Of a stretch of 64,000 nt of DNA, positions 43,338 to 52,322 are shown in pieces. The notes beneath the pieces were generated by a model that was given only the letters and a program-made list of their open reading frames with translations, was not told the origin of the DNA and did no database searches. Each line of letters starts with the position of its first letter. The first letter of the stretch is position 1. This DNA comes from Alphaproteobacteria bacterium. GTDB taxonomy: Bacteria; Pseudomonadota; Alphaproteobacteria; Elsterales; Elsteraceae. Position numbers and translations under genes: made by a program. The stretch lies in the NCBI GenBank assembly GCA_004292755.1, contig RDXE01000024.1, positions 124,001 through 188,000 on the forward strand, given 5' to 3'.

Positions 43338-46082
43338 TTACGCGAACAGTGCGTCGATGGCGGCTTGGGGATCGTCGGCTGCGGGGATGCTGCTGTTGGG
43401 GGTAGGGGTGGTTGGCTTGTCCATGGTGCGGACGATGCCGTCCAGACGCTCTTCCATCTGGGCCAGCTTGGCGATGGCGCGGCGCAGGCGTTGGGAGGTG
43501 AGGTCCTGGAAGCTGCAGGCCTCGAAAATCGCGGTCAGCTGATCCTGGATGACGCGTGCTTCCTCGCTGTCGCCAACAGCTTCGATGCGGCCGGCGATCA
43601 CCTCGGCCGCTTCCAGAATCCGGCTGGCAGCCTGTTCGGTCATGCCCACCACGCTGGCCAGCATGCCGCTGCTTTCCTTGTCGCCTGCTTGCGCCATGGT
43701 CGAGATTTCGGCGCGCATGTGCACCAGTTCTTGCTCGAACAGCACAGCTTCAATCGCGCGCGCGACACCATCCAGGGCTGGCTTCAAAGCGCGGGCCAAG
43801 CCCTTGGCGTCGGCGATGCGGTTCTCGCGGAACGATTGCTCGATGGCAGCCGCAATGCTCGACAGCTGCGCCGCCCCAACATAGGCAGCGGCCGACTTCA
43901 GGCCGTGGGCGGCGTCTTGTGGCCCCTTCACCGGACCATCGGTGTAGGTCACCACCTCTTCCACCAGCGGTGTGGCGGCCTCCAGGAAGCCTGTCAGAAT
44001 ATCGCGCCGCGCATCCACATCATTGCCGACCAGTTCAACAATGGGTGTCAGGTCCAACACCTGCGCGTCGACCGACACCAGTTGCGTCGTGCTGGCGGCC
44101 GACACCTCTTCCTCCAGCGGCGTGCGCAACTCCGCCAGATCGGGCAGGGCTGCGAGCACCGCCGCCTCCAGGGCATCCAGGTTCAGCGGCTTGGTCAGGT
44201 AGCCATCCATCCCGGCGGCTTCGCATTGGTCGGCCGTGCCTTTGACGGCATCGGCCGTCAACGCCAACACGGGTAGGCGCGGCGAGCCGCCAGCCGCTTC
44301 AATGGCGCGGATGGTGTGGGTTAACTCCCAGCCATCCAGACCGGGCATGTGACAGTCGGTAATCAGCAGCCCGTAATCATCGCGCCGAGCCTGCAGCGCC
44401 TCCAACGCCTTGACGCCGTCAACCACCAGCTCGTGGGCAAAGCCCAGCCGATCCAGCACGCGGTGGAGCACCGTGCGGTTGGTGGGATTGTCCTCAGCAC
44501 ACAGGATCATCACGCCTGCAGCGCGGGCATCGCTGTCAACCGGTGGCCGCCAGCGGTGGGCACCACCCTCGCTCTCGCCGCCTTCGGCGGAGCGTTGTGG
44601 GGCAGGGCAGGGCACCGCGGGAAGATCGACGATGAAGCGAGAGCCGCCGCCCAGGCGGCTGTCCACCTCGATGCGGCCACCCATCGCCTCCACCAACCCT
44701 TTGGAGATGGAGAGCCCAAGGCCGGAGCCGCCGAAGCGCCGCGCCGTCGATGCCTCCGCCTGACTGAAGGCGGAAAACAGACGGGACAGTTGATCGGGCG
44801 CCATCCCGATGCCTGTGTCACACACCGTGAACCGCACGCCCAGCGGGCCGGGCTCCAGTTTCAACTCAATGTGGCCATGGTGCGTGAACTTGATGGCGTT
44901 GCCGATCAGGTTCAGCAGCACCTGGCGAACCCGCACTCCATCGCTCAACACGTGCTGGGGTACACCCTCCGCGATCATCGTGCGGAACTGCAGGCCCTTC
45001 TCATGGGCCTTCGGCGCCATCAGTGCCGCTGACCCTTCGATCACATTGATCAAGTCGGTCGGCAGCACCTCCACCTCAATGCGCCCGGCCTCAATTTTGG
45101 AGAAGTCCAGGATGTCATTGATGATGGTCAGCAGCGAGCGCCCGCTGTCGCGGATGGTGTTGACCATCTGGCGCTGATCGGTCGACAAACCGGTATCGGC
45201 CAGCAGGTCAGCCATGGTCACAACGCCATTCATCGGCGTACGGATTTCGTGGGACACGGTTGCCAGGAAGGCGGATTTGGCGCGAGCCGCCGCCTCCGCC
45301 GAAACCTGTGCGCGCCGCAGGTCGGAGACGTCGTAAATCCAAGTCAGCACGCCGTTTTGACGCTCGAACACCACCCGTTCCATGCTGACCAGCGCATTGA
45401 TCGGCGTGCCGTCGCCGCGCCGCAAGGTAACGCTGGCATCGCGCACCTGACCCGTGTCGTCCAGTTGGTGCAGCAAGCCGTCGCGCAAGGTGGCATCGCC
45501 GTCCAGCACCAGACCAGCCGCATCGGAGAAATCGGCCCCCTGAACGCCTAGGATGTCCAGCAAGCGGCTGTTCCAGAACAACACGCGCCCGTTGCGATCC
45601 AGAATGGTCGCCCCGATCGGGGAGGCCTCGAGCACGGACAACAGCGCGTCCTCCGAAGCCTCCAGATCTTTTTCAACAGCGATGCGGTCAGACAGGTCAT
45701 AGAACCAGACCAGAGCCGCGCGCCTGCCCTCAAACGTGATGCGCTGCATGGTGACCGAGGCCCAGGCGTCGCGGCCATCGGCGGTGATCAGCTCAATCTC
45801 CAGCCCGCGCACCACACCGGTGGCATCAAATTCAGCCAGGGCCCGGCGGCGCACCAGCCAATCTTTGAAAAACATTTGGCCCGCGGCTTCGGCAAACGCT
45901 TCGCCCTGCAATCCACCCAGCATGTCAATCAGACGGCTGTTCCAAAACATCACCCGCCCGTTGCTGTCCAGAATGACCACACCGGAGGGAGAGGTTTCCA
46001 GCACCTCAATCAAGGATTGCTCAGCGCTGCCAAGGTCTTGGCATACGTCCAGGGACAACCGGGCCAAGGGCTCGGCGCTCAT
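43338..46082 (-). CDS. Hybrid histidine kinase with PAS-PAS-HK-REC-HPt and C-terminal CheZ-like module
   Basis: Soluble 914-residue protein, no membrane segment. Two closely similar PAS domains (about 20-135 and 140-255) share ILDxNGRVxFWNSRL. The kinase has H-box SHEIRTPMNG (His278), N-box LLNLIGNAIKFT, and G boxes DTGIGM and GSGLGLSISKG. The receiver is ILCAEDNPTNR with phospho-Asp576 (ITDCHMPGLDG). An HPt follows with His726 (AHGLKSAAAYVGA). Residues about 790-885 resemble the CheZ phosphatase: FEACSFQDLTSQR puts Asp860 and Gln864 at the catalytic spacing of CheZ (D143/Q147 in E. coli). The extreme C-terminus DDPQAAIDALFA resembles CheY-docking peptides. I chose ATG 46082; a GTG at 46136 is in frame. 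No chemotaxis genes are nearby. Confidence 0.88.
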   Translation of the reverse strand: MSAEPLARLSLDVCQDLGSAEQSLIEVLETSPSGVVILDSNGRVMFWNSRLIDMLGGLQGEAFAEAAGQMFFKDWLVRRRALAEFDATGVVRGLEIELITADGRDAWASVTMQRITFEGRRAALVWFYDLSDRIAVEKDLEASEDALLSVLEASPIGATILDRNGRVLFWNSRLLDILGVQGADFSDAAGLVLDGDATLRDGLLHQLDDTGQVRDASVTLRRGDGTPINALVSMERVVFERQNGVLTWIYDVSDLRRAQVSAEAAARAKSAFLATVSHEIRTPMNGVVTMADLLADTGLSTDQRQMVNTIRDSGRSLLTIINDILDFSKIEAGRIEVEVLPTDLINVIEGSAALMAPKAHEKGLQFRTMIAEGVPQHVLSDGVRVRQVLLNLIGNAIKFTHHGHIELKLEPGPLGVRFTVCDTGIGMAPDQLSRLFSAFSQAEASTARRFGGSGLGLSISKGLVEAMGGRIEVDSRLGGGSRFIVDLPAVPCPAPQRSAEGGESEGGAHRWRPPVDSDARAAGVMILCAEDNPTNRTVLHRVLDRLGFAHELVVDGVKALEALQARRDDYGLLITDCHMPGLDGWELTHTIRAIEAAGGSPRLPVLALTADAVKGTADQCEAAGMDGYLTKPLNLDALEAAVLAALPDLAELRTPLEEEVSAASTTQLVSVDAQVLDLTPIVELVGNDVDARRDILTGFLEAATPLVEEVVTYTDGPVKGPQDAAHGLKSAAAYVGAAQLSSIAAAIEQSFRENRIADAKGLARALKPALDGVARAIEAVLFEQELVHMRAEISTMAQAGDKESSGMLASVVGMTEQAASRILEAAEVIAGRIEAVGDSEEARVIQDQLTAIFEACSFQDLTSQRLRRAIAKLAQMEERLDGIVRTMDKPTTPTPNSSIPAADDPQAAIDALFA

Positions 46083-46248
46083 CGAATGGCCACCATCGGC
46101 GGCCCGCAGCGGGAACGCGACATCACCACCACCCACTCCCCACGCTAGTGCGCTTAGACCCCGTCGGATCGTGCCCTGCCGACAGTCTCGATAGCATACC
46201 GCGCGTGATTGCCAAACCTCGAAACACAGATATTGACGCGATTGAAGG

Positions 46249-48388: not shown

Positions 48389-49639
48389 TCAGGCGGGGGC
48401 GAACACCTGGATCGGACGCCCGACGCCACGCAAGTCCTGCGGGCCAAGGGCTTCCCACTCCCGCGGGATCAGCGCGGCGACGGCACCCGAAACCAGGATC
48501 GGGCGCTTCAACTGCTTGGTCAGGGATTCCAGGCGGGAGGCTTCATTGACGGCTGGACCAATCAAGCCAAAGTTCAGTCGCGCTGGCGTGCCGACATTGC
48601 CATAGACCAGTTCGCCCCAGTGGATGCCAATGCCGAATTCAATGTCGCGGGTGTAGACGCACTCGGCCTTCTCCCGCAGGCGGGCGAGGCGCGCGCGGGC
48701 ATCCAGCGCGGCAGTCAGCGCGCGTTGGGCGGCATCGGTGTCGCTGTTGCTGCCCCGCACCGGAAAGATGCCCAGCACGGCATCGCCAATGATCTCCAGC
48801 ACATCGCCGCCCGCCGCGAGTACGGCACCGGCGGTACAATCGGCATAGGCGTTCACCACCGACAGGTAGCGGTCCACGGGCAATTGGTCCGCCAAGCCGG
48901 TGGAGTTGCGCAGATCGCTCATCCAAATGACCGTGCGCAGCCACTCCCCATCGCCGCGGCGGATGCGCCCGGACAGAATGCGCTGACCAGCGTCGCGTCC
49001 GTGATAGGTTTCCATCACGGTTTCGGCCAGATGCCGCTCGTTCGCCAGCTTGAACGCAATCGCCATGGGCGTGCGCAGTTGCTCGATCAGCACCAGATGC
49101 TCCGGCTGAAACCCGTCGCGATCCGCTGAGAGCGACACCACGATGCCGGATTGCTGAGCGGGATCGTCGGTGCCATCAAAGCCAATGCGCAGGGCCAGAT
49201 AATCGGTCAGCCCCAGGTCCCCGAAGTCGCGAAACACCGGGAAGGCAGCCACGACTGCAGGGTCCGTTGGGTCAAGGCGCAGGCTCAACAGGCCCTCAAC
49301 CTCCATTTTGTAGAACGGGCTCCGCTCCCACGAACCCGTGTCGACGCGATCATGGCGCCAGGTTTCCACTTCCACTGTCTTGCCGCGGCGCCAGATCACA
49401 CCCTGGCCTTCAATCAAGGGGTGGATCAATTCATAGCCGACCATGGCGCGCGCCAGCGGCACACCGGCCTGAACCAGGATGGCGGCCAGCGCATCCATGA
49501 TTGCCACAGCCGATGGCTGAAACAGGGCTTGGCGCAAGAGGCGGTCAGCCGCCTCGGTAGCGGAGGGGACAACATCGAAGGGGCGCAGCGTTGCCGCAGC
49601 CCGCTCAGTCGGAGCGATGGTGGTTGTGAGAAGGCTCAT
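48389..49639 (-). CDS. Class III nucleotide cyclase with guanylate-type specificity residues
   Basis: This 416-residue protein has an N-terminal sensory region of about 200 residues (unrecognised, GAF-like in feel) and a C-terminal class III cyclase domain. Metal-binding Asp are at 242 (MSDLRNS) and 286 (IIGDAVLG); the transition-state Asn365 and Arg369 are in AVNEASRLE. The purine-choosing Lys of adenylate cyclases is Glu282 (VLEIIGD), and the second position, Thr or Asp in adenylate cyclases, is Gly358 (NFGLIG). A Glu/Gly pair is, from memory, that of the cyanobacterial guanylate cyclase Cya2, so cGMP may be the product. No membrane segment. The ATG at 49639 was preferred over 49669. Confidence 0.86.
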   Translation of the reverse strand: MSLLTTTIAPTERAAATLRPFDVVPSATEAADRLLRQALFQPSAVAIMDALAAILVQAGVPLARAMVGYELIHPLIEGQGVIWRRGKTVEVETWRHDRVDTGSWERSPFYKMEVEGLLSLRLDPTDPAVVAAFPVFRDFGDLGLTDYLALRIGFDGTDDPAQQSGIVVSLSADRDGFQPEHLVLIEQLRTPMAIAFKLANERHLAETVMETYHGRDAGQRILSGRIRRGDGEWLRTVIWMSDLRNSTGLADQLPVDRYLSVVNAYADCTAGAVLAAGGDVLEIIGDAVLGIFPVRGSNSDTDAAQRALTAALDARARLARLREKAECVYTRDIEFGIGIHWGELVYGNVGTPARLNFGLIGPAVNEASRLESLTKQLKRPILVSGAVAALIPREWEALGPQDLRGVGRPIQVFAPA

Positions 49640-49697
49640 ACTCGTCAGCAGATGGCCCCAACCACCCAATGGTCAAGGGGTGAGGCGTCTCCATATC

Positions 49698-49754: not shown

Positions 49755-50615
49755 TCAGGCAACGCCGCCATTGCGACCGAACCAAGCCAGCAGACGACGC
49801 CAACCATCCTCAGCCGCCTCCTTGCGGTAGGACGGGCGGTAGTCCGCATGGAAGGCATGGGGCATGTCCGGGTAGATCACGATTTCCGAGCGGGTGCCGC
49901 TGCCCAGCGCGGTGCGCAATTGTTCCACGGTCGGCACTGGGATGCCGGTGTCCGCAGCGCCGTACAGGCCGAGGATCGGCGCGCGGATGCGCGTGGCGAC
50001 ATCGACCGGGTTGGTTGGCTGGTTGGCGGTTGGTTCGCCGACGGTGCGGCCATACCAAGCCACGCCTGCCGACAGCGCTTGGTTGTGCGCGCCGTACAGC
50101 CAAGTGATGCGGCCACCCCAGCAGAAGCCCGTGATCCCAAGCCAATCGGCCCGGCCCCGACTCTCGGCCCGCGCCCAGGCAGCGGTTGCGTCCAGATCGG
50201 TCATCACTTGGCTGTCGGGGACGGCGGCGACAATCGGGCGGATTGCATTGAAATCCGTCAGGCGGGAGACGTCGCCCTGGCGGGCAAACAACTCCGTCGC
50301 CACGGCGCAATAACCCTGACGGGCCAACCGGCGGCAGACATCCTTGATGTGCTCATGCACGCCGAAGATTTCCTGGACCACCAGCACCACGGGGAACGGC
50401 CCTGCACCCGACGGCATCGCCCGGTAGGCTGGGATGCGGTCGCTGCCAATGGGAATAGTCACTTCACCCGCGACCAAGCCATCCGTCGGCGTGGTGATCA
50501 TGGTCTGCGCCTGCACCGGGTGGGTGCTGAGGGCAAAGCCCGTCGCGAGCGAGGTCATGATCGCGCCGCGCCGGGTCAAGATTGGGTCTGGCAGGATCAG
50601 GCGTACGTCGTCCAT
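49755..50615 (-). CDS. Dienelactone hydrolase family protein, probably exported
   Basis: This 286-residue alpha/beta hydrolase has the DLH catalytic Cys in GFCWGGRITW, the Asp in AADTGIPVP and the His in MPHAFHADYRP. Dienelactone hydrolases open lactones in aromatic degradation, but many family members have other roles. The N-terminus LTRRGAIMTSLATGFALS looks like a Tat signal, with mature protein after VQAQ. GGGGGAAT precedes the ATG at 50615. It faces yicC divergently across 154 bp. Confidence 0.88.
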   Translation of the reverse strand: MDDVRLILPDPILTRRGAIMTSLATGFALSTHPVQAQTMITTPTDGLVAGEVTIPIGSDRIPAYRAMPSGAGPFPVVLVVQEIFGVHEHIKDVCRRLARQGYCAVATELFARQGDVSRLTDFNAIRPIVAAVPDSQVMTDLDATAAWARAESRGRADWLGITGFCWGGRITWLYGAHNQALSAGVAWYGRTVGEPTANQPTNPVDVATRIRAPILGLYGAADTGIPVPTVEQLRTALGSGTRSEIVIYPDMPHAFHADYRPSYRKEAAEDGWRRLLAWFGRNGGVA

Positions 50616-50769: not shown

Positions 50770-51687
50770 ATGATCAAGCCCGCTGCCCCCCTTCTGAGCA
50801 TGACCGCCTTCGCCCAGGCGGCTGGCACCGAGCCAAGCTTCGCGTGGCGGTGGGAGGTGCGCAGCGTCAATGCCCGTGGCCTCGACCTGCGGGTGCGCCT
50901 ACCCCAGGGTTGTGAGCGCTTGGAGCCCACGGTGCGCGACCGCCTGTCCAAGGTCTGCGTTCGCGGTGCCGTCAGTGCAACGCTGGAGGTTCGGCGTCTG
51001 GCCGGGGCGCGACCGCTGCAAATCAATGCCGAAGCGATTGCCCGGGTCTTGGCCTTGCATCAGGCCCTGGTGCCGCGGGTGGACCCATCGCCGCCGCGAC
51101 TGGAAGCCCTGTTGCAGGTCAAAGGCGTGCTGGATGCCAGCGAGGATGCACCGGACTCAGAGGAGGAGGTGGCCCAGCGCGATGCCCTCCTGATCCAGGG
51201 TCTGGATGCGGCCGGTGCCGCTCTGCATCAGGCGCGGGCAGAGGAAGGTGCGCGTCTTGCTGCCGTGCTGCTGGCGCAGATAGACCGGATTGACGCGCTG
51301 GTTGGCGAGGCGGCAAGCCTCGCCGTGACGCAGCCAACGGCATTGCGCAATCGGCTGGTGGCGATGCTGGCCGATGTGCTGGCCGAACCACAGCCCGGCC
51401 AGCGCAGCATCGATCCCCAGCGGCTGGAGCAAGAGGTAGCGCTCTTGGCTGTCAAGGCTGATGTGCGGGAGGAGTTGGACCGGCTGATCGCTCACAGCGC
51501 CCAAGCCCGTGATCTGGTGGCGGCAGGTGGTGCCGTTGGCCGTCGGCTTGACTTTCTGGCGCAGGAGTTTAACCGCGAAGCCAACACCCTTACCTCCAAG
51601 TCCACCGACACCGCGCTGACCCGGCTTGGGATCGAGTTGAAGACGGTGATCGATCAGTTCCGTGAGCAGGTGCAGAACATCGAATGA
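50770..51687 (+). CDS. YicC family endoribonuclease
   Basis: This 305-residue protein has the YicC pattern: LLSMTAFAQA at the start, EVRSVNARGLDLRVRLP, and the C-terminus GRRLDFLAQEFNREANTLTSK. YicC proteins act as endoribonucleases in E. coli. GGACGGGG precedes the ATG at 50770. Its stop overlaps the gmk start (ATGA). The usual partner mltG is about 11 kb upstream. Confidence 0.92.
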   Translation: MIKPAAPLLSMTAFAQAAGTEPSFAWRWEVRSVNARGLDLRVRLPQGCERLEPTVRDRLSKVCVRGAVSATLEVRRLAGARPLQINAEAIARVLALHQALVPRVDPSPPRLEALLQVKGVLDASEDAPDSEEEVAQRDALLIQGLDAAGAALHQARAEEGARLAAVLLAQIDRIDALVGEAASLAVTQPTALRNRLVAMLADVLAEPQPGQRSIDPQRLEQEVALLAVKADVREELDRLIAHSAQARDLVAAGGAVGRRLDFLAQEFNREANTLTSKSTDTALTRLGIELKTVIDQFREQVQNIE

Positions 51688-52322
51688 CAACGCCGCCCCC
51701 GATCCGCCGCCGTGGCTTGATGCTCGTGTTGTCGTCGCCGTCGGGCGCTGGCAAGACCACTCTGTCCCGCTTGTTGCTGGAGGAGGAGCGGGGACGACTC
51801 GAGATGTCGGTCTCGGTCACCACCCGGCCCCGGCGCCCGTCGGAGGTGGACGGGCGCGACTACCATTTTATCGACCTGCCGCGCTTTGAGCACATGGTGC
51901 AGCGCGGCGAGTTGCTGGAGTGGGCCGAAGTGTTCAACAACCGCTACGGAACGCCGCGCGATGCCGTGGAGTCTGCACTGTCAGCCGGACGCGACGTGCT
52001 GTTCGACATCGATTGGCAAGGTACCCAGCAGATTGCGCGCGCGGCCCGGCGGGACCTTGTGTCGGTGTTCATCCTGCCGCCGTCCTACGAAGAGCTGCGC
52101 CGCCGCCTCACCACCCGTGCTCAAGATAGCGCCGATGTGATCGCCGGTCGCATGGCCAAGGCGGCTGACGAAATGTCCCACTATGATGAGTATGATTACA
52201 TCGTGGTGAACGAGGACGTGCAGGAAAGCTTGGCCCAAGTCCACGCCATTCTGAAGGCCGAACGCCAGAAGCGCGAACGCTTGGTCACGATTGCCGATTT
52301 TGTGTCGGCTTTACGCGGATAA
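51684..52322 (+). CDS. gmk: Guanylate kinase
   Basis: Gmk phosphorylates GMP to GDP. The 212-residue protein has the P-loop SSPSGAGKTTLSR, the GMP-binding SVSVTTRPRRPSEVDGRDYHF and DIDWQGTQQI. It is coupled to yicC. The 3' end lies 3 bp from the convergent small secreted protein gene. Confidence 0.97.
   Translation: MTTPPPIRRRGLMLVLSSPSGAGKTTLSRLLLEEERGRLEMSVSVTTRPRRPSEVDGRDYHFIDLPRFEHMVQRGELLEWAEVFNNRYGTPRDAVESALSAGRDVLFDIDWQGTQQIARAARRDLVSVFILPPSYEELRRRLTTRAQDSADVIAGRMAKAADEMSHYDEYDYIVVNEDVQESLAQVHAILKAERQKRERLVTIADFVSALRG

Follow-up and report, generated by a model that had tools for sequence, protein, structure and literature searches.

A soluble alphaproteobacterial GAF-cyclase with the Glu/Gly base-selecting pair of Cya2: a candidate guanylate cyclase

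Among the genes of the window analysed here, a stretch of 64,000 nucleotides from an alphaproteobacterium of the family Elsteraceae, there is one for a class III nucleotidyl cyclase that is probably a GAF-regulated, GTP-preferring enzyme making cGMP. This product is favoured instead of the usual cAMP because the substrate pocket holds the same two residues, Glu282 and Gly358, as that of Cya2 from Synechocystis PCC 6803. Open reading frame analysis places the gene on the minus strand, which an earlier sequence-only reading of this DNA had left out, from an ATG at 49639 to a stop codon ending at 48389; an alternative TTG start is possible 30 bases upstream, and the ATG was adopted (Table 1).

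Table 1. The cyclase gene, its domains and key residues, and the adjacent upstream gene (window positions).
Feature	Position	Strand	Size or evidence
Class III nucleotidyl cyclase gene, GAF + cyclase catalytic domain	48389..49639	minus	416 aa
GAF sensory domain, residues 24-190, cysteine-free	49070..49570	minus	AF2 model, structural matches
Signalling helix + cyclase transducer-like element, residues 189-222	48974..49075	minus	predicted helices; putative role
Class III catalytic domain, residues 231-416	48392..48949	minus	PF00211, superposition on Cya2 2w01
Asp242, metal site 1	48914..48916	minus	invariant in 56-row alignment
Glu282, first base-selecting site (Lys in ATP enzymes, Glu in Cya2)	48794..48796	minus	alignment
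Asp286, metal site 2	48782..48784	minus	56-row alignment
Gly358, second base-selecting site (Thr/Asp in ATP enzymes, Gly in Cya2)	48566..48568	minus	alignment
Asn365, transition-state residue	48545..48547	minus	alignment
Arg369, transition-state residue	48533..48535	minus	56-row alignment
Dienelactone hydrolase gene, immediately upstream of the cyclase	49755..50615	minus	PF01738; 115 bp gap to ATG

The protein belongs to class III by its domain, its fold and its active site. Residues 240-392 match the Pfam family Guanylate_cyc (PF00211, 33.8 bits against a cut-off of 21.9), and the metal-binding Asp242 and Asp286, the transition-state residues Asn365 and Arg369 and the two base-selecting residues all stand in the translated frame and in the alignment where the sequence-only reading had put them. 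The Cya2 sequence (PDB 2w01) was set against those of the window protein, bPAC and further cyclases encoded in the same genome, and in this alignment the two metal aspartates of Cya2 and its Asn/Arg pair share columns with those of the window protein. Glu282 aligns with the Glu of Cya2 (...GGTIDEFMGDG... in Cya2, ...GGDVLEIIGDA... in the window protein), and no Lys occupies this site, as it does in ATP enzymes; Gly358 aligns with the Gly of Cya2 where ATP enzymes have Thr (...KYGVVGAQVNLTYR... and ...NFGLIGPAVNEASR..., respectively), and bPAC shows a K/T pair in the two columns. The Glu/Gly pair that the sequence-only reading had ascribed to Cya2 is thus borne out by the 2w01 alignment and by the literature (PMC4215837). 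The two proteins share 26-27% identity, and differ in Pro362 for Ala after the second-site motif and in Ser368 for the Tyr that precedes the transition-state Arg in Cya2. Such a Tyr is not known to be a requirement in natural guanylate cyclases. The predicted full-length structure (mean pLDDT 86.4) superposes on Cya2 2w01 with Z 21.0 and an rmsd of 2.4 A over 183 residues, and fits CyaC, CyaB, bPAC and OaPAC about as well, so that the fold alone is silent on the substrate. By sequence and fold, the catalytic domain is best matched by the photoactivated adenylyl cyclases bPAC and OaPAC, which differ from the window protein in their K/T pair, their BLUF light sensor and their cAMP product.

The N-terminal part, previously described as an unrecognised sensory region of 200 residues, can now be assigned. 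Residues 24-222, modelled alone with AF2 (pLDDT 89.8, pTM 0.87), retrieved 3k2n (Z 12.7, 3.2 A over 161 residues) and the GAF domain 3o5y (Z 12.6, 2.9 A over 138 residues) in a structural search, the best matches being GAF, phytochrome GAF, PDE5/PDE6 GAF and the related LuxR-type autoinducer domains. The Pfam model GAF_2 (PF13185) is matched by 6 of 56 family members, with a best value of 1.6e-5, and leaves the window protein itself unmatched. As modelled, the sensory region has the GAF alpha/beta fold. There is no Cys in residues 1-222, and hence none to attach a bilin, which argues against a bilin photoreceptor of the phytochrome or CBCR type. A Pfam search found no CHASE2 domain in the window protein, which has the GAF fold in place of the CHASE2 and transmembrane input of Cya2; Cya2 sits in the membrane (PMC5995499), whereas the window protein is a soluble GAF enzyme. 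Two predicted helices, 189-213 and a short one at 215-222, connect the GAF domain to the catalytic domain in an arrangement like that of other sensor-cyclase proteins.

From these elements we infer a signalling route in which a cytoplasmic ligand would bind the GAF domain and the change that it induces would pass via helix 189-222 to a catalytic homodimer. Each active site would be built with the metals held by D242 and D286 of one subunit and with N365 and R369 of the other; Glu282 would contact guanine where ATP enzymes bind adenine with Lys, Gly358 would leave room for it, and the pair would favour guanine by analogy with Cya2, feeding a putative downstream cGMP signal. Bacterial cGMP synthesis is also predicted for the guanylate cyclase of Rhodospirillum centenum (GcyA) and for XC_0250 of X. 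campestris. Several residues of XC_0250, among them Ala150 at the substrate position and Leu157 at the position of the transition-state Asn, are conserved in the R. centenum enzyme (PMC3770947), whereas the window protein has Gly and Asn at these two places; it therefore resembles Cya2 and not the R. centenum enzyme, and the link to R. centenum drawn by the sequence-only reading is a weak one.

All six key residues (D242, E282, D286, G358, N365 and R369) recur in the same-genus orthologue L012, at 66% identity, and in L017, a homologue of a different genus in the family, at 37-39%. For the window gene and its same-genus orthologue, dN/dS comes to about 0.14 for the catalytic and 0.24 for the GAF part. 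These values, rough because synonymous sites are near saturation, place the gene under purifying selection. Since the six residues are kept in both relatives of a gene so constrained, they are not there by chance.

Of 60 relatives, 38 have a match to the protein at E 1e-3, matches confined to the cyclase domain included, and the full-length architecture occurs in 65 of 385 genomes of the class at E 1e-60; rhizobial plasmid proteins (e.g. from Sinorhizobium and Phyllobacterium) are 32-39% identical over 93-100% of the window protein. Judging by these comparisons, the GAF-cyclase architecture is widespread in Alphaproteobacteria, in proteins annotated as “adenylate/guanylate cyclase domain-containing protein” that share the full-length architecture and GAF fold of the window protein and differ from it in usually carrying the ATP-type Lys/Thr pair. 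Among the 56 aligned members, K/T occurs in 27, R/S in eight, Q/N in five, L/T in four and E/G in three, the rest having S/S, N/T, R/T, D/S, T/S or S/T. Some of these proteins depart from the common plan: three S/T GAF-cyclases (L016, L053, L054) are fused to a long extra region in open frames of 867-913 aa, and two K/T GAF-cyclases of Roseobacteraceae (L077, L083), on very long branches, have Gly at the transition-state Asn and perhaps an altered catalysis.

The three E/G proteins, from the window, from the same genus (G001) and from the same family (G003), cluster in the tree with a support of 99/95, which becomes 86/90 with the two specificity columns removed. Given this lower value and a quick tree that leaves the G003 protein in an unresolved fork, a single origin of the E/G pair is likely, short of proof. 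The three are nested in a clade of 26 sampled proteins, none with Lys at the first site (L013, L014, L041-L046, L047-L053, L056, L059, L071 and L072, besides the window protein). Its support is 100/96 once the two specificity columns are dropped along with four rows of long branch or odd composition, and 98/94 in the fuller tree, where a long-branched K/T pair falls inside. Clade members have R, S, L, N, T, D or E in the place of the Lys, and their catalytic residues are all intact. Among close relatives the pair stays constant (two N/T, two L/T, four R/S, three S/T and two E/G), which argues against drift at the specificity sites. An E/G member is present in only 3 of the 9 genomes of the family, and a DNA pattern for an acidic first site in a GG-x-hydrophobic context, run over the 385 class genomes, found only four cyclases: the window one, the D/S protein of G190 and two E/T proteins of another type.

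Cya2 produces cGMP and converts the other nucleotide only to a minor extent; replacing one residue (E488K) is enough to make it an adenylate cyclase (PMC5995499), and selectivity in this scaffold thus depends mostly on the first residue. In the cya-negative E. coli strain BTH101, Cya2 has served as the guanylate cyclase control (PMC10127613). The Ma1120 double mutant K101E/D157G, however, still preferred ATP, and became impartial between ATP and GTP only after a third change, A167Y (PMC4215837), at a place where the alignment shows Tyr in Cya2 and Ser368 in the window protein. According to these published mutants, E/G by itself gives no guarantee of GTP use. The window enzyme could then still be an adenylate cyclase, or accept ATP about as well as GTP, with adenine read by the backbone or by other residues despite Glu282 and Gly358. 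Most relatives that share its architecture carry the K/T pair of adenylate cyclases, Ser and not Tyr stands at 368, and the many Lys-free sister proteins cannot all be guanylate cyclases; moreover, the residues may not map simply onto the substrate, since the choice of residue in the family (R, S, L, N, T, D, E) is unusually loose here. We nevertheless hold this reading to be rather unlikely, as Cya2, with the same pair, makes cGMP and the pair of the window protein is conserved, not drifting.

The same diversity of the sister group, with E, D, R, L, S, N or T at the first site and all catalytic residues kept, could also mean that Glu282 is one of many solutions in an enzyme that uses another nucleotide (e.g. 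CTP, UTP or dATP) or none in particular. This is very improbable: E/G is exactly a known GTP pair, and a literature search found no tested enzyme of the clade with another substrate. Isolated bacterial guanylate cyclases are often described as poorly active, which would suit a catalytically weak or silent protein with a regulatory role; this too can be given little credit, for neither the metal aspartates nor the Asn/Arg pair are lost, and the slower-evolving of the two domains is the catalytic one. In a more speculative and, in our opinion, doubtful scenario, base recognition would have been re-tuned across a whole clade, with the window enzyme as one of the results: a monophyletic set of GAF-cyclases of Alphaproteobacteria would have lost the Lys that binds adenine and tried out R/S, L/T, S/T, S/S, N/T, T/S, D/S and E/G while catalysis stayed intact, its lineages making cGMP or other cyclic nucleotides on one scaffold.

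The genes around the cyclase include no cGMP effector, phosphodiesterase or other cyclic-nucleotide gene. The dienelactone hydrolase gene might be co-transcribed with the cyclase, on whose other side lies a convergent gene for a class IV aminotransferase, with yicC and gmk on the plus strand beyond these three. Hydrolase, cyclase and aminotransferase keep the same order in a same-genus genome (L064), with a lysozyme/chitinase-like gene inserted beside the cyclase. A functional tie to the guanylate kinase gene (51684-52322, plus strand) was rejected, as it lies on the opposite strand in a housekeeping yicC-gmk pair. A palindrome resembling the CRP/CgrA site TGTGA-N6-TCACA, with one mismatch, overlaps the cyclase ATG (49625-49640). 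Such sites are rarer in the window than expected by chance (9 versus 19.9) and a looser motif has no match in the corresponding upstream stretch of the orthologue, so the palindrome was judged a coincidence and CRP/CgrA control of the cyclase was discarded. Elsewhere in the window (43338-46136, minus strand), a hybrid histidine kinase with two PAS domains, HisKA, HATPase, receiver and Hpt ends in a region that resembles the chemotaxis phosphatase CheZ (PF04344, E 3.4e-6, just under the cut-off), a C-terminus that recurs in the same-genus genome (L064:839-3577).

At the genome scale, there are nine further class III cyclases. A CHASE2 cyclase with an E/S pair and a HAMP cyclase with D/G (L067:8171-10201 and L069:7785-10205) are, by their residues, further guanylate cyclase candidates, and a GAF-cyclase paralogue of the window protein with a Q/N pair (L068:8134-9519) is conserved in the family (L025, L026, L029, L104, L105, L107). 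The genome also encodes 16 cNMP-binding domains, so that receivers for the putative cGMP are possibly present. They belong to two channels of the cyclic-nucleotide-gated type, to cNMP-EAL, cNMP-GGDEF-EAL, cNMP-chemoreceptor and cNMP-ABC proteins, and to four Crp/Fnr regulators. In a comparison with Clr/CgrA, the Crp-type regulator L096 of this genome gives 53.9 bits with Clr, about equal to its scores with several other Crp proteins. The cNMP-EAL, cNMP-GGDEF-EAL and cNMP-chemoreceptor proteins (L089:1147-2691, L100:1393-3246 and L098:1219-2700, respectively) may bridge cyclic mononucleotides to c-di-GMP and taxis; the second of them, considered as a counterpart of XC_0249, gives a weak match to the cNMP domain of a diguanylate cyclase (E 0.013).

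Confirmed bacterial guanylate cyclases are few, and the extent of cGMP use in bacteria is debated. Class III cyclases of the GTP type, proteins that join GAF and cyclase domains, and the E/G pair have each been described before; the window protein would bring them together. More surprising than this combination, as far as the sampled sequences tell, is that members of the neighbouring clade have replaced the Lys by so many different residues and still kept their catalytic ones. If the proposed activity is true, a soluble, cysteine-free GAF enzyme with the pocket of Cya2 would lend itself well to work in vitro. The sister group, in which a single scaffold carries many residue pairs, would allow the code of purine selection to be read from natural variants and not from crippled mutants.
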